Source: Amycolatopsis sp. FDAARGOS 1241 | Lineage (GTDB): Bacteria > Actinomycetota > Actinomycetes > Mycobacteriales > Pseudonocardiaceae | Direction: 5' to 3' | Assembly: GCF_016889705.1 (NCBI RefSeq) | Contig: NZ_CP069526.1 | Location: 7,451,001 to 7,515,000, forward strand | Length of the DNA: 64,000 nt | In this document: piece by piece, positions 2,739-29,257 of the stretch | Position numbering within the stretch: position 1 is the first letter of the stretch | Layout of the letters: every line of letters starts with the position of its first letter | Position numbers and translations under genes: made by a program | The notes under the pieces: generated by a model | What the model was told of the DNA's origin: nothing | Database searches by the model: none | What the model saw: only the letters and a program-made list of their open reading frames with translations

Positions 2739-3933
2739 TCACAGCCGGATGCCTGCCCACGGCGCGAACCCGGCCAGCGAGCCGGTGACGCGCCGCTCGG
2801 CGGCGGCCGGCGCACGCACGGTCTCGGTGACCGACGGGTGGTGGCGAGTGGCGTTCGGCGCGACCTTCCGCGCCGCGGTCAACTCGGCGAGCGCCCTTTC
2901 CCGGTTGCCGTGCAGCAGCCACGCCCGCGCCATGTCGATGTGGTGGTGCCCGACGCGCTCCGGACGACCGGGATCCACCACGGTCACCGACTCGGCGCGG
3001 CGCACGGCTTCGGTGGCGTCGTAGTTCTCGACGGGCGCCGCGAACCAGTGGACGACTATGTTCGTCACGCTCGCGTCCACGTTGTAATAGGGCGTCTCAG
3101 GCGGGTGGAATTCGTCGGCGAACGCACGCGGCTCGGACAAATACCCGTCGGCCTCGTTCGGGTCGCCGGCGCGCGCGGCGAGGATCGCCGAGCGCAGATC
3201 GAGCTGGATCGCGATGGCGCGGTCGGCCGGCCCGGCGGCGACGTGCCGGCGCGCACGGTCGAGAAGCCGCAGCCCGTTGCGGTAATCGCCGTGCTGGAGG
3301 TAGCGCGTGCTGCGGTGGTACGCGCTGATCGCGATGCGCAGCGGGTCGCCGGTGGCCGGCGCGAGCTGGATGTGGCGCTCGGACGCGATCGCAGCGAGGT
3401 CAGCCTGCCGAAACCGCCCGGCGACGGTCGCCGCCATCCGGTAGGCGTCGTGCAGGAACGCGCGCGCCTGCTCCCCGGCGTGGCCCCGCTCGTCGGCCAG
3501 AACGTACAGGTGGTGCAGCAGAGGGGGCAGCTCGGCGAGCACGTCGGCGTTGCGCAGCAAGAGAGCCTTCGCCGAGGTTTTCGTGAGGCGTCCGGCGATG
3601 GTGTCGAGGGTGAGCGGGTCCCCCTCAGGCCGGGGGTCGTCGTAGGCGTCGAGCGCACTGCGCAGCTCGGCGACACCGGCTGACTCCGCGCTCGGCTCGT
3701 CGAGCACCTCGTTTTCCCGGGTGCCGTACAGCGTGGCGACCTGATCCCGAGCACTCGGGCCGCTCCCGCCACGAACGCGGCGCTCGGCGGCTTGCTGCCC
3801 TGCGCCACCTTCTTGACCAGCGACTGCGAGAGGTTGGCGCGCCGTGCGAGCTGGAGCTGGCTCAGCCCCTTCAGCTTGCGAGCTGCTTTGAGCCGATCGG
3901 CGACGCTGTCCCCGGAAGATCGGGCACGCGCAT
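2739..3933 (-). pseudogene. XRE-family HTH regulator with TPR-like C-terminus, two frameshifts
   Basis: An XRE-type DNA-binding domain (DRLKAARKLKGLSQLQLA...) and its ~300-aa helical, TPR-like sensor domain lie in different frames. The best start is ATG at 3933 with AGGAG five bases upstream (minus strand); it reads MRVPDLPG, then leaves frame at a four-G run (plus 3910-3913). The HTH frame reads GAARVLGI, then leaves frame at plus 3740-3741. The sensor part resumes as VATLYGTRENEV and runs to the TGA at 2739. One extra G at each site would restore a single protein of about 398 aa. Either the gene is decayed or two homopolymer bases were missed in sequencing. It diverges from two small ORFs. 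Confidence 0.8.
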
Positions 3934-4041
3934 GGTGCTCCTGCCGTCCGCCTGGTGTCCCTTCGGTGTCCCTCCAGCAAACCAATCACTTTTAGCCTCT
4001 CGGCAGTAACTATCAGCTACAACGCGTGTGGACGGTGCACG

Positions 4042-4305
4042 ATGACGGCGCAGATTGCGGGCACGCTGCCCGCAGACGAGATCGAAGAAGCGGCGTACGC
4101 CGTGCACTTCTGGGCGGAGGAAGCCCGCAACCACCTGTTCCGCCGGGCCGAGGTCGACGACCCGGTTCACGACGTGCTGGAACCGCAGTGCACCCGTGGG
4201 CGCGTGATCCCCGCGCGCTGGGTGTTCCGTTCGGAGCTGTCCGACGAGCACGGCGGCGACCGCGACCGTCCGCGGGAGGGCCGGCTGTGCTTCCGGAGGC
4301 GATGA
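4042..4305 (+). CDS. Small hypothetical protein next to XRE regulator
   Basis: Protein of 87 aa, not assigned to a family. It begins MTAQIAGTLPADEIEEAAYAV, is acidic in the first third and Arg-rich at the C-terminus (RDRPREGRLCFRRR). No signal peptide or membrane segment is seen. It diverges from the XRE regulator and its stop overlaps the next ORF's ATG (ATGA), suggesting a two-gene operon of the kind often placed beside XRE/TPR regulators in actinomycetes. A longer reading from 3955 is possible, but ATG at 4042 leaves a normal intergenic promoter region. Confidence 0.55.
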   Translation: MTAQIAGTLPADEIEEAAYAVHFWAEEARNHLFRRAEVDDPVHDVLEPQCTRGRVIPARWVFRSELSDEHGGDRDRPREGRLCFRRR

Positions 4306-4508
4306 CGGTGGGCTGGTGGATCCGCGACGACGGCGGCGAGACGGTCACCGACCCTGAGACCGGCGTCGTGATCGCGTCGGCGATGTCCACGACTTCGTGC
4401 GAGCTGTCCTCCGGCAGTCGGGTGCTCTCCTGGGAACAGCCCGCCGCCGACCTGTCCGAACCGGGCACGATCGAGCTGCCGTGCCCCAACGCCTGCGGCG
4501 ACGAGTGA
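4302..4508 (+). CDS. Small hypothetical protein (68 aa)
   Basis: Starts MTVGWWIRDDGGETVTDPET and ends PCPNACGDE; 68 aa, acidic, no membrane segment. CCGGAGG sits about five bases before the ATG, and the ATG overlaps the upstream stop, so translational coupling is likely. It has three cysteines (one mid-protein, two in CPNAC near the end). Family unknown to me; the context, divergent from an XRE regulator, is the only hint at function. Confidence 0.55.
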   Translation: MTVGWWIRDDGGETVTDPETGVVIASAMSTTSCELSSGSRVLSWEQPAADLSEPGTIELPCPNACGDE

Positions 4509-4747
4509 CGGAGCGTGACCGGGTTATCGAGCAAACCGAGGACCCGGCCCACGAACCATTCGCGGCCGGGCGGACCAATCCCGGGAAATCGGCCACGACT
4601 TCATCACTGCCATCCTTCGGCAGACCGGGCATCTCGAGCATTGACCGGCGCAGCGGCGCGGAGGTGCCGAAACCGCCGAAGTCCTTTGTGGACCCCCCGG
4701 CCGTAAACAACTTCCCCGGCCGCCCCCTGCCCTGCCAAGATCACCGG

Positions 4748-24715: not shown

Positions 24716-25232
24716 CCGACCCCTTTCCCACTTGAACACCGCGCGTTTCACCATTGTTCGGCGAATTCCCGACGCGGGCCCGGCTCAAGCTAGTCACGCG
24801 ATTCCGGCGCGACAAGCAACAGCACTTCGGTTCATTCGAGTGGCCGTGTGCGGGACCTGCTGATCACTGGAACGGAGCAGTTGAACGTTGGAACACCCGC
24901 TCTGAATAGGCCTGTCACCTGCGAACCACCGTAGATCTCTCGCAGAAACTCCCAACCGGGTGACAGCCATCGACCCACGGTGACCGGAATCGGACATCGG
25001 AAGATCATCTCGAAACTGGCAGTCTGACAACAGGAACTGAAATGCCCGATTACCCCTTCTGGCAAACAGGTGAATCGAGTCTGCTGACCCGATCGTGGGG
25101 TTGTCCGCACAGGTCGGCTTGATATGTTGAATCCCGCGGCGCCGTTGAAATGAATTCACGCAGCAAACGATGTTGCATTCGTGCTGGACCCTATTTCGCA
25201 CGTTGGATATTCGACGATGGGTGGTTTTCGCA
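24716..25232. other. Low-GC intergenic region upstream of encapsulin operon
   Basis: About 515 bp without a convincing gene and visibly less GC-rich than its flanks, especially 24830-25220. Short ORFs on both strands lack ribosome binding sites and codon bias. It must contain the promoters of the encapsulin operon (+) and of the DUF4239 gene (-). Confidence 0.6.
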
Positions 25233-26645
25233 GTGACCGTCACGGACCCCGTGGACTCCGCGAACCCGGAACAACCGCAACTGAGCCTGGGCCGGGCCGC
25301 GGCCCGCACGCTCGCGACGACGACCAAGTCCGTTCCGCAGATGCAGGGCATCACCACGCGGTGGCTGCTCAAGGTGCTGCCGTGGGTCGAGGTCTCGGGC
25401 GGGGCGTACCGCGTGAACCGCCGGCTGAGCTACTCCGTCGGCGACGGCCGCGTCACGTTCGCCACCACCGGTGCCGAGGTGCGGGTGATCCCGCCGGAGC
25501 TGGGCGAGCTGCCCCCGCTGCGCGGCTACGACGACGAGGAGGTGCTGACCGAGCTGGCCGGGCGGTTCGTGCAGCACGAGTTCGAACCCGGCGACGCGCT
25601 CGTGGAGTTCGGTCACCAGGCCGACCAGGTCTTCCTCGTGGCGCACGGCAAGATCAGCAAGGTCGGCACCGGCGCGTACGGCGACCAGACGGTGCTCGGC
25701 ACCCTCGCCGACGGCGACTACTTCGGTGACACCGTGCTCACCACGGCCGACGGGATCTGGGAGTACACGGCCAAAGCCGTGACCGCGTGCACCGTGCTTT
25801 CCCTGTCCCGCAGCGAGTTCCAGGGCGTGCTCGAGCGGTCCGATTCGCTGCGTGAGCACGTCGCGGCCGTCGCCGAGGGCGCGGCGGGCCCGGCCAACGA
25901 CCACGGTGAGGCGGCGATCGACGTCGCGTCCGGTCACGACGGCGAACCGCAGCTGCCCGGCACCTTCGTGGACTACGACTCCGCACCGCGGGAGTACGAG
26001 CTGAGCGTGGCGCAGACCGTGCTGCGGGTGCACTCGCGCGTCGCGGACCTCTACAACCAGCCGATGAACCAGATCGAGCAACAGCTGCGCCTGACCGTCG
26101 AAGCCCTGCGCGAGCGGCAGGAACACGAGCTGGTCAACAACCGCGACTTCGGCTTGCTGCACAACGCGGACTACGCGCAGCGCGTGTCGACCCGCACCGG
26201 GCCGCCGACCCCGGACGACTTCGACGACCTGCTTTCCCTGGTGTGGAAGGACCCCGCGGTCTTCCTGGCCCACCCGAAGACGATCGCCGCGTTCGGCCGC
26301 GAGTGCAACCGCCGCGGCGTGTACCCCGACGCCGTGGACCTCGGCGGGCACCAGGTGCCGGCGTGGCGCGGGGTGCCCGTGCTCCCGTGCAACAAGATCC
26401 CGGTCACCGACACGCGGACCAGCTCCGTGCTGCTGCTGCGCACGGGCGAGCAGGCGCAGGGCGTCGTGGGCCTGCACCAGACCGGTCTGCCCGACGAATA
26501 CCAGCCGGGCCTCAACGTGCGGTTCATGGGCATCAGCGAGCAGGCGATCATGTCGTACCTGGTGAGCGCGTACTACTCCGCCGCCGTGCTGGTGCCCGAC
26601 GCGCTGGCTGTGCTGGAGAACGCCGAGATCGGACGTGGTGACTGA
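25233..26645 (+). CDS. Family 2B encapsulin nanocompartment shell protein, paralogue 1
   Basis: 470 aa HK97-fold shell protein. The N-terminus ([20 protein letters not shown]) and C-terminus ([20 protein letters not shown]) are hallmarks of family 2 encapsulins. A cyclic-nucleotide-binding-like domain is inserted at about residues 105-215 ([26 protein letters not shown]), which defines family 2B. Such shells enclose enzymes of terpenoid or related metabolism. GTG at 25233 is the likely start; GTG at 25221 is possible. The TGA overlaps the ATG of the next small ORF by one base, so they are coupled. Confidence 0.93.
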
Positions 26646-26830
26646 TGCCCGCGCCGGCCACGCCGCCGCGGCCGCCCGAGGCGGGGGCTCCCGGGCCTTG
26701 CGCGGCGCCCCTGCCGCCGTCGGCGTTCGGGCCGACGGGGCTCGGCACGAGCGCGCTGAAGATCGTGCCGAGACCGGCGGACGCGCGAACCCCGGACGCT
26801 CCCGAGCCTGACAAGCGAGGAACCGCATGA
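26645..26830 (+). CDS. 61-aa Pro/Ala-rich protein with GPTGLGTSA motif, putative cargo-loading peptide
   Basis: Small disordered protein, about half Pro/Ala, with one conspicuous ordered stretch [18 protein letters not shown] (residues ~24-41). A similar GPTGxGTAA motif occurs in the disordered N-terminus of 2-methylisoborneol synthase, a family 2B encapsulin cargo, where it is thought to direct loading. Here the motif is a separate protein. The ATG overlaps the stop of shell 1 and the stop overlaps the ATG of shell 2 (ATGA), so all are translated together. It may bring cargo in trans, occupy the shell interior, or be a remnant. Motif match is from memory of the family. Confidence 0.7.
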
Positions 26831-28212
26831 CCGTCGCCGAAGAACCGCGCGCGCCGCTTTCGCTGTCCACGCGCGCGGCCCGCACGCTCGCCACCACCAC
26901 GAAGTCGCTGCCGCAGATGCGCGGCATCACCCCGCGCTGGCTGTTGTCGCAGCTGCCGTGGGTCGAGGTGCCGTCCGGTTCGTACCGGGTCAACCGACGG
27001 CTCACCTACACGCTCGGCGACGGCCGGGTGAGCTTCTACAACACCGGAGCGCAGGTGCACGTCGTGCCGGCGGAGCTGGCGGAACTGCCGCTGCTGCGCG
27101 GGTTCGGCGACGCCGACGCGCTCGCGGCACTGGCCGAACGGTTCGAGCAGCGCGAGTACGAGCCGGGCGACACCGTCGTGACGGCCGGCGCGCCGCTCGA
27201 CACGGTGGTGCTGGTGGCCCACGGCAAGGTGGCGCGGACGGCGCCGGGCGCCTATGGCGAGGACGCGCACCTGGGCACGCTCACCGCGGGCGATCACTTC
27301 GGCGGCTCGGTGCTCGGCGGCGGCGCCGGGACCTGGGAGTTCACCGCGAAGGCACTGACCCGATGTGTCGTGCTCGTGCTACCGGCCGACGCGTTCGAGC
27401 GGCTCAACGGGCGCGTCGAAAGCCTGCGCTCGCACATTCGGTCCGTGCTGCAGAACCCGGCGAAGGCGCACAACAAATCCGGTGAGGCGAACATCGACCT
27501 GTCCGCCGGGCACGACGGCGAGGTCGCGCTGCCGGGCACGTACGTGGACTACGACCCGGCGCCGCGGGAGTACGAACTCGCGGTGGCGCAGACGATCCTG
27601 CGCACGCACAACCGCGTGACCGACCTGTACAACCAGCCGATGAACCAGCTCGAGCAGCAGCTGCGGCTCACCGTGGAGGCGTTGCGCGAGCGGCAGGAGT
27701 ACGAGCTGGTGAACAGCACGGACTTCGGCCTGCTGCACAACGCGGACCTCGGGCAGCGCATCACCACCCGCTCGGGTCCGCCGACGCCCGGCGACCTCGA
27801 CGAGCTGCTGTGCCGCCGGCGCAAGTCGCGGTTCTTCCTGGCCCACCCCAAGGCGATCGCCGCGTTCGGGCGTGAGTGCACCGCGCGCGGGCTGTACCCG
27901 GCGAACGCGGTTCTCGACGGCCGGCGCGTGACAACGTGGCGGGGCGTGCCGCTGCTGCCGTGCGACAAGACCCCGGTCTCGCCGCGGGGCACCACGTCGA
28001 TCTTCGTGCTGCGCACGGGCGAGGAGGACGCGGGCGTGATCGGGCTGCGGCCGGCGGAGCTGCCGGACGAGTACCAGCCGGGCCTGAACGTGCGGTTCAT
28101 GGGCGTGAACGACCGGGCCGTGACGTCGTACCTGGTCAGCGCGTACCACTCGGCCGCGGTGCTGGTGCCGGACGCGCTGGGTGTGCTCGACGACGTGGAG
28201 ATCGGGCGCTGA
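26827..28212 (+). CDS. Family 2B encapsulin nanocompartment shell protein, paralogue 2
   Basis: 461 aa, closely similar to the shell protein at 25233 over its full length (shared [59 protein letters not shown]). The inserted cNMP-binding-like domain is present ([20 protein letters not shown]). Differences cluster in that domain and in the loop after [15 protein letters not shown], where [10 protein letters not shown] replaces [11 protein letters not shown]. Two paralogues suggest a mixed shell. Coupled by ATGA overlap to the 61-aa ORF; the prenyl synthase follows after 22 nt. Confidence 0.93.
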
Positions 28213-28234
28213 GGCTCACCTTCGGAGAGGACGT

Positions 28235-29257
28235 ATGACCACAGTGGACACGCGGGCGAGGTCGGTTCCGGAGGTGCTGGCGTGGAGCCGCGAGCTGTGG
28301 GAGCCCGCGATGCGCGCGGCGGTCGACCGGCTGCCCGAATCGATGCGGCGCATCGCCGGTTACCACTTCGGGTGGTGGGACGGGTCGGGCTCGGGTGCCG
28401 CGGTACCGAGCGGCAAGGCTTTGCGGCCGGCGTTGGTGCTGTTGTCGGCGGAGGCCGCCGGCAGCGATCCGGCCGACGCGGTCGCGGCCGCCGTGGCGGT
28501 GGAGTTGGTGCACAACTTCTCGTTGCTGCACGACGACGTCATGGACGGCGACGAAACCCGGCGGCATCGGGCGTGCGCGTGGACCGTGTTCGGGACCAGT
28601 CCGGCGATTCTGGCCGGCGATGCCTTGCTGGCGCTGGCTTTCGACGTGCTGTCGGTGGACGGTCCGACTTCGGCTCGGGTGTTGAGCACTGCGGTGCTTC
28701 ACCTGTTGCACGGGCAGAGCGAGGATCTGGCGTTCGAACGGCGGCCGTCGGTCGATCGGGAGTCGTGCGTTCGCATGGCGGAGGGCAAGACCGGGGCGCT
28801 GCTGGCGGCGGCTTGCACGCTCGGTGTGCTGGCGGTGGGTGGGCGTGGTGAGCACGTTGCGGGACTGGGGGCGTTCGGTCAGTCGTTGGGGCTGGCTTTC
28901 CAGCACGTCGACGATCTGCTGGGGATCTGGGGTGACCCGGCGGTGACGGGCAAGCCGGTGTTTTCGGATCTGCAGAGCCGGAAGAAGTCGTTGCCGGTGG
29001 TGGCCGCGTTGGGTGCTTCTGGTGCGGCTGCGGTGGAGTTGGGTGGGTTGTATCGGCAGCAGGAGCCGTTGTCCGAGGCCCAGCTGGTGCGGGCGGCTGA
29101 GCTGGTGGAGTCGGCTGGTGGGCGGGAGTGGAGTGCTTCGGAGGCTTCGCGGTTGGTCGGGTGTGCGTTGGAGGCGCTGGAGGGAGTGGCGCCGGTGAGG
29201 AGGGCCGGGGCGGAGTTGAGGGGGATTGCCGAGCACATCACGCGTCGGGATCGTTGA
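28235..29257 (+). CDS. Polyprenyl diphosphate synthase family protein, likely encapsulin cargo
   Basis: 340 aa trans-isoprenyl diphosphate synthase. First Asp-rich motif LLHDDVMDGD (DDxxD, near residue 100); second is DDLLGIWGD, a changed form of DDxxD seen in this group. GKALRPALVLL is the FARM-flanking basic region. Members make or use C15-C20+ prenyl diphosphates. It has no long disordered N-terminus, unlike many encapsulin cargoes; the needed motif may come from the 61-aa ORF. GGAGAGG precedes ATG. The last 600 bp are very G-rich on this strand. Confidence 0.9.
   Translation: MTTVDTRARSVPEVLAWSRELWEPAMRAAVDRLPESMRRIAGYHFGWWDGSGSGAAVPSGKALRPALVLLSAEAAGSDPADAVAAAVAVELVHNFSLLHDDVMDGDETRRHRACAWTVFGTSPAILAGDALLALAFDVLSVDGPTSARVLSTAVLHLLHGQSEDLAFERRPSVDRESCVRMAEGKTGALLAAACTLGVLAVGGRGEHVAGLGAFGQSLGLAFQHVDDLLGIWGDPAVTGKPVFSDLQSRKKSLPVVAALGASGAAAVELGGLYRQQEPLSEAQLVRAAELVESAGGREWSASEASRLVGCALEALEGVAPVRRAGAELRGIAEHITRRDR

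Follow-up and report, generated by a model that had tools for sequence, protein, structure and literature searches.

The locus described here lies within a 64,000-nucleotide stretch of DNA from Amycolatopsis sp. FDAARGOS 1241 (contig NZ_CP069526.1, positions 7,451,001 to 7,515,000; hereafter the window), in which two genes for family 2B encapsulin shells, a 61-amino-acid (aa) open reading frame (ORF), and a gene for a polyprenyl diphosphate synthase (PT) follow one another on the plus strand in the order Enc1, small ORF, Enc2, and PT (Table 1). The small ORF encodes a Pro/Ala-rich microprotein (28% Pro, 20% Ala) resembling a cargo-targeting tail, and overlaps Enc1 by 1 nucleotide (nt) and Enc2 by 4 nt. 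An initial annotation, made from the sequence alone, had described two cNMP-domain shells flanking a protein with the motif GPTGLGTSA, and this description proved accurate: the profile matches below and the composition agree with it, and conservation together with the overlaps indicates a separately encoded, selected, targeting-tail-like protein coupled to both shell genes.

Both shells match NF041163, the NCBIfam profile for family 2B shells (785.9 bits for Enc1 and 734.9 bits for Enc2; cut-off 400), and also the Pfam family cNMP_binding (PF00027)—that is, both combine an HK97-fold shell with an inserted cNMP-binding-like domain. At the place of diagnostic motif 1, LVWK is found in Enc1 and RRRK in Enc2, the assignment expected for a two-component system from the published Enc1/Enc2 difference of xVWK versus RRRK, with Streptomyces lydicus Enc1 having TVWK (Dutcher, Andreas & Giessen, 2025, PMC12407261). 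Enc2 is matched along its whole length by the solved structures 9bix, 9bje, and 9bhu, and an in-frame ATG at 25170 offers an alternative start for Enc1. The two are the only shells found in the source genome at E ≤ 1e-100, and shells of this kind, at the same threshold, are present in 75 of 80 genomes of the genus.

Table 1. Positions of the operon features in the window, and of a candidate cargo gene elsewhere in the genome
Feature	Position	Strand	Basis
Enc1, first family 2B encapsulin shell	25233..26645	+	470 aa from GTG; NF041163; SrpI-like and cNMP_binding domains
61-aa Pro/Ala-rich microprotein, stand-alone, targeting-tail-like	26645..26830	+	ATG start; homologs, alignment, 21/80 genus genomes, codon-position bias
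N-terminal box TPPRPP of microprotein	26660..26677	+	TPPR in 21/21 aligned copies
Conserved core of microprotein	26711..26770 (GPTGLGTSA itself 26729-26755)	+	GPTGLGT in 21/21 copies; similar motif in terpene cyclase tails
C-terminal basic box DKRGTA of microprotein	26810..26827	+	[KR]R near the end of most copies
Enc2, second family 2B shell	26827..28212	+	ATG, 461 aa; NF041163; 4-nt ATGA overlap with microprotein ORF
PT, polyprenyl diphosphate synthase	28235..29257	+	ATG, 340 aa; PF00348; no disordered N-terminal domain
Terpene synthase, encapsulin-cargo type (L189, L200)	G000:C1:7709662-7711881, outside the window		PF19086, NF041168

A selected small gene between two shell genes

The small ORF is a genuine, selected gene. 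A protein search returned 10 relatives of the microprotein, and a profile search, in which scoring was confined to the 7984 candidates with the most shared words, returned 37 homologous small proteins at E ≤ 7.8e-10, with the next match only at E 1.6; all those of the 37 that carry an organism name are from Amycolatopsis. Among the 80 genomes of the genus, 25 match the small ORF at E ≤ 0.001 and 21 at E ≤ 1e-9, the 21 being the ORF itself and the other four (G003, G011, G030, G062) being terpene cyclases (TCs). The 21 aligned copies are all open, with lengths of 51–87 aa and linkers of variable length between the invariant GPTGLGT and TPPR elements; two of them were started at an inner GTG by the start rule, and a 22nd, frameshifted copy (G006), which lacks the TPPR box when read in the frame of its core, was kept outside the alignment. 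In the microproteins, GPTGLGT is followed by three residues, then K or R, and then I, V, or L.

Differences between the copies fall predominantly at third codon positions, amounting to 0.21, 0.18, and 0.44 per codon at positions 1, 2, and 3 when all pairs are pooled (for an uncorrected ratio of nonsynonymous to synonymous differences, pN/pS, of 0.43), and to counts of 36, 30, and 77 in seven species pairs (binomial p 3.6e-7). By region, amino-acid difference was found to be 0.16 in the core, 0.22 in the N-terminal box, 0.45 and 0.39 in the linkers, and 0.37 in the C-terminal box, as calculated from the 16 copies at loci not classed as the 2-methylisoborneol (2-MIB) type. Residues 53–61 vary more than the core and the N-terminal box, with the C-terminal box lost in G029 and G039.

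The junctions with the shell genes are also conserved. Of the 18 loci containing both the ORF and Enc2, 16 show a 4-nt overlap between the stop of the former and the start of the latter, as scored by script; of the remaining two, G010 was left unassigned by the script and also ends in ATGA, and G029 has a 4-nt gap. The distance from Enc1 to the ORF ranges from −1 to +5 nt, with two misplaced starts and two stops missed by the script read by eye. A spurious frame in GC-rich DNA is ruled out by the third-position excess and the conservation; as a weak control, a stop interrupts one or both of the alternative forward frames in 17 of the 21 copies and neither frame in the other four, with the reverse frames often open. 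Thus, the view of the initial annotation that the 1- and 4-base overlaps make an accidental origin unlikely is upheld, because the ORF has 37 homologs, is found in 21 of the 80 genus genomes, and shows the codon-position counts given above.

The structure model of the microprotein has a mean predicted local distance difference test (pLDDT) score of 64 and a predicted template modeling (pTM) score of 0.14, and the protein is predicted to be disordered. Its sequence has no match in Pfam or NCBIfam at E ≤ 1, and no chain in the PDB matched its profile at E ≤ 10. Alternatively, the microprotein could be a regulator or a cargo of another kind that is encapsulated in its own right, for example to bind a metabolite or a cyclase in the lumen; its predicted disorder and Pro-rich composition, and the motif it shares with the putative tag of known cargo (Andreas & Giessen, 2021, PMC8346489), would be compatible with this. 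However, the absence of any such family match and the scarcity of conservation beyond the short boxes argue against this role, which we regard as very improbable.

Terpene cyclases in the slot between the shells

The position between Enc1 and Enc2, or slot, is occupied in other genera by a two-domain TC of the NF041168 type (984 bits in L041; cut-off 1200), and TC/PT operons with the cyclase between the shells have been described (PMC12407261). The operon in the window shares with these the Enc1/Enc2 difference at motif 1, the PT directly after Enc2, and a gene in the slot, but differs in that this gene encodes a 61-aa tail-like protein instead of a TC; the main text of the same paper, over the parts and search terms covered, contains no such small protein.

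The ends of the slot cyclases are similar to the microprotein. In L041, L063, and L032, the TC ends with a Pro-rich linker, a GPTGLGT-type motif (GPSGLGTSAAR in L032), and 13–28 further residues, and the gene terminates 9–12 bases ahead of the Enc2 match. Within Amycolatopsis, G004 and G032 carry Enc1-TC-Enc2-PT, and the TC tail of G032 contains the GPTGLGT-like sequence GAPSGLGTEITRI followed by 15 residues. In G004 and G032 alike, the TC frame stops after reaching 4 nt into the Enc2 match (5435/5438 and 5627/5630), which fits the same 4-nt overlap as that between the small ORF and Enc2. A 245-aa shortened TC, covering profile positions 15–229 of 735, lies between Enc1 and Enc2 in L061 (A. 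acididurans, 3844–4581); this stump is without the GPTG motif and appears to represent another stage of cyclase loss in the slot.

Loading of family 2B shells is little understood, and the GPTGLGT motif, which geosmin-synthase-like cyclases carry at the C-terminus and also between their domains, has been called no more than a possible targeting sequence (PMC8346489). The initial annotation had placed the motif in the cargo's own disordered N-terminus, which holds as one location but not as the sole one. Compared with the GPTGLGT(SAAR) putative tag of family 2B TCs (PMC8346489; NF041167, NF041168), the microprotein has an identical GPTGLGT core followed by S, A, or T, a shared basic residue three positions further on, and a similarly Pro/Ala-rich, disordered stretch, but is a separate protein without an enzyme, being a stand-alone ORF in all 21 genomes that have it. 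When motif-bearing TC frames were scored with the microprotein profile, 3.0–31.7 bits were obtained among those reported, compared with 9.9 bits for the best shuffled control. Because the 52 entries scored, in which some proteins occur twice through two loci, were selected as motif carriers, the scores show little beyond a core of 12–14 residues.

Distribution of the small ORF and the case of the PT

Among the 21 genomes with the small ORF, 15 have the order Enc1-small ORF-Enc2-PT (in G040, G051, and G077, the contig begins inside Enc1). Three others (G055, G006, G029) have a 2-MIB-type locus without PT, in the order methyltransferase, 2-MIB synthase, Enc1, small ORF, and Enc2, with runs of N of 1,036 and 1,185 bases over the middle of Enc1 and Enc2 in G029. 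G064 and G039 are likewise of the 2-MIB type and contain the small ORF, with no Enc2 found (G039 was classed by its downstream neighbors, as its contig begins in Enc1), and in G044 the contig ends just past the small ORF. In one 2-MIB locus (L124), the methyltransferase matches GPPMT (NF041943, 516 bits) and the cyclase matches the encapsulin cargo profile NF041167 (478 bits; cut-off 400).

Twenty further Amycolatopsis loci, chosen by hand and not at random, comprise eight with Enc1-Enc2-PT and no small ORF, eight with both shells and a 2-MIB synthase and no small ORF (L177 in another gene order), and four (L170, L171, L175, L176) in which Enc2 is lacking or the locus is cut. L176, the PT locus of G006, has lost Enc2 and contains a frameshifted small ORF. 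The initial annotation had taken absence of the motif from homologous operons as evidence against loading in trans by the small protein. What was found is mixed: GPTGLGT is present in all 21 genomes with the ORF, but the ORF itself is absent from the eight two-shell PT operons and is carried by the three 2-MIB operons without PT, so that this argument applies in part.

As far as searched, the microprotein appears to be restricted to one genus. Across 390 genomes of the family, in a search scoring fewer candidates per genome than that of the 80 genomes, matches stronger than 1e-8 occurred only in the 21 genus genomes. The weaker matches that were opened with their flanks (G003, G030, G062, G097, G127, G186, G238, and G350) are TCs, the weak match in G011 coincides with the geosmin synthase match of that genome, and the one in G195 belongs to an open frame of 177 aa that lies at the end of a contig and has a third-position GC of 0.67. 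A further match to the motif in the source genome sits in an unrelated 415-aa frame.

The PT matches NF041169, the profile for family 2 encapsulin cargo PTs, at 442.7 bits, just under the cut-off of 450, and its gene adjoins the shells. Family 2B PTs have been described as having 50–100 disordered N-terminal residues (PMC8346489), and the PT in the window has no N-terminal domain of that length. Its AlphaFold2 model has a mean pLDDT of 91.9, with the first helix from residue 11; residues 1–10 and 51–60 have means of 66 and 68, respectively, and four residues fall below 50, with residues 1–3 as the sole run. Because the model is confident, with a helix from residue 11 and few low-scoring residues, a disordered N-terminal domain is absent, just as the initial annotation had stated. 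Its use of the short N-terminus as a sign of the small ORF's role, on the other hand, has to be abandoned: none of the 68 two-shell PT loci, in which some species are present twice via two collections, allows an N-terminal extension of at least 40 aa (largest 23 aa, median 0), with or without the small ORF. Such an extension is allowed in 5 of 21 loci of the script's one-shell class, among them loci whose shell is truncated at the end of a contig or interrupted by runs of N. Two-shell family 2B PTs are therefore without long N-terminal extensions, contrary to the published general description. Compensation by the small ORF for loss of the PT N-terminal domain is ruled out, since the PTs are short at the N-terminus in all 68 loci; a short N-terminus is the rule in two-shell operons and does not indicate that the microprotein has taken over its role.

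An adaptor that would bind the shell interior through its core and the tag-less PT through the TPPR and [KR]R boxes, and would thus load the PT in trans, is attractive insofar as the PT has no N-terminal tag domain, the gene order of the 15 genomes above places the two in one operon, and translational coupling suggests similar amounts; furthermore, the N-terminal box is conserved outside the core, and conserved boxes there need a partner. However, the PTs of the eight operons without the small ORF have equally short N-termini and fall within the same PT clade, and the three two-shell 2-MIB operons have the small ORF but no PT. The case for PT loading in trans by the microprotein is weak, as nothing specifically favors it and the comparative data do not favor the PT as partner, and we consider an adaptor of this kind rather unlikely.

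The history of the ORF within the genus can be followed on a tree of 46 Enc2 rows, where it is found on either side of the deep split in an Amycolatopsis clade of 33 rows, in 5 of 6 rows on one side and 12 of 27 on the other (one of the 27 unknown), and is absent from 15 of the 33. A single origin with several losses fits this spread best, with gain by exchange between loci also possible. One loss is visible in G022, in which the frame following the Enc1 stop opens with MPGPA and continues into Enc2; the small ORF of the sister genome G073 begins in the same way. In 10 of the 13 junctions without the ORF that were read, the shell matches lie 8–20 nt apart, and in the other three, the Enc2 matches begin about 10 residues in. 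The Enc1 and Enc2 genes of the PT and 2-MIB loci are near-identical within G055 (L161/L124), G042 (L164/L163), G069 (L165/L166), and G025 (L168/L167), which suggests gene conversion of shell genes between the two cargo operons; the small ORF of the 2-MIB loci may thus have come with the shells.

These absences, the loss in G022, the close spacing of the shell genes at junctions without the ORF, and the altered copies in G029, G039, and the PT locus of G006 could all be expected of a vestige, that is, a dying remnant of a cyclase gene kept for a time since its frame couples translation of Enc1 and Enc2. Against this stand the third-position excess, the invariance of the core and the TPPR box in all 21 genomes, and the maintenance of the frame across total lengths of 51–87 aa, as a pure coupler requires no conserved peptide. 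A vestige of this sort is, in our judgment, improbable.

A possible shell-level role for the microprotein as a putative detached cargo tag

We tentatively prefer a reading, with a likelihood somewhat below even, in which the microprotein would be a stand-alone targeting tail left by a lost cyclase and would act at the level of the shell as a ligand of the interior tag site. Its ancestor would most likely be the C-terminal tail of a geosmin-synthase-like TC encoded between Enc1 and Enc2, in the order Enc1-TC-Enc2-PT; after loss of the cyclase body, the tail alone would have survived as a separate gene. Since the microprotein is translated in overlap with both shell genes, we infer that its amounts would be close to those of the shell proteins. 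The GPTGLGT core would dock into a luminal shell site recognizing the same motif in TCs, with the rest of the protein, a flexible chain bearing short conserved boxes, lying within the shell, and the microprotein would thereby occupy or fill tag sites, without being dedicated to the PT. It might help assembly of shells that lost their built-in cyclase, and/or might set the number of sites left for cyclases encoded elsewhere, namely geosmin synthase here and 2-MIB synthase in relatives.

A shell-level role is favored because the microprotein follows the shell pair and not one enzyme: Enc1-small ORF-Enc2 occurs with PT in 15 loci, and with a methyltransferase and 2-MIB synthase and no PT in three. 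Among the three copies without a neighboring Enc2, two are altered or frameshifted (those of G039 and the G006 PT locus, but not that of G064), and such copies, small as their number is, lean toward the same role.

Several observations weigh against the proposed origin and role. The likeness to TC tails extends over about 12–14 residues in a low-complexity setting, and the slot TC of G004 does not have the motif in its tail. The tail of the source genome's own geosmin-type cyclase (FGPTGIGTEALRI) is equally similar to the microprotein, and descent from the tail of a geosmin synthase elsewhere in the genome is, judging by these sequences, equally possible. The copy in G064 is intact though no Enc2 follows, and that in G029 has lost its C-terminal box though both shell genes appear to be present, with runs of N inside them. 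The microprotein is also not essential, since it is missing from eight PT operons of related species and from the same number of 2-MIB operons, all with two shells, and in the 2-MIB operons that have it, it may be hitch-hiking with the near-identical shells.

A related formulation, possible though short of probable, is that a freed cargo tag became established as a ligand within the lumen, either recruiting an enzyme without a tag in trans or competing with distantly encoded cyclases and so metering their loading, which would make the microprotein the first non-enzymatic stand-alone encapsulin tag protein. Neither stand-alone tag proteins nor loading in trans was found for encapsulins in the open-licence literature searched, which is weak evidence of novelty. 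Two-shell family 2B systems and the motif as a possible tag are already known, and the putative stand-alone tag protein appears to be new. In carboxysomes, CsoS2 is a disordered scaffold and adaptor encoded with the shell; the microprotein might, by analogy, likewise link shell and cargo, but is far smaller and has no repeats.

A candidate for cargo supplied in trans is the only PF19086 terpene synthase found in the source genome, a single protein with two domains encoded 230 kb from the operon. It matches NF041168 at 1193.5 bits (cut-off 1200); one GPTGLGT-like motif lies in the interdomain region and a second, GPTGIGTEALRI, close to the C-terminus. Of the 80 genus genomes, 78 contain a relative, and [GAST]G[LIV]G[TSA] occurs in the last 45 residues of 24 of 25 readable relatives (30 loci given). 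This enzyme may be a trans-encoded cargo of the window's shell, and geosmin synthase, although its gene lies apart from the shell operon, could thus be a genuine cargo of such shells.

With full cyclase, shortened cyclase, tail only, and nothing found among the operons, one slot would record a cargo gene eroding to an address tag. A natural protein that is nearly a tag only, present or absent among close relatives with the same operon, offers a clean test of tag binding and of loading in trans, and could be used for studying how encapsulin compartments are filled.

Some minor observations concern the related loci. Many Amycolatopsis 2-MIB synthases (L124, L127, L163, and others) have the variant xPFGLGTSAAR at the N-terminus in place of the GPTGLGT-type motif. 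Runs of N interrupt the shell genes at both encapsulin loci of G029 (L128, L172), and shell searches miss or split them. In L176, a low-complexity frame from the start of the N-terminal box is open for about 175 codons into the PT, which may be chance in GC-rich DNA. In L170 and L175, Enc1 stands alone, with no Enc2 found, beside a 2-MIB synthase or PT; as S. lydicus Enc1 by itself forms no shells (PMC12407261), these loci may depend on the Enc2 of another locus.

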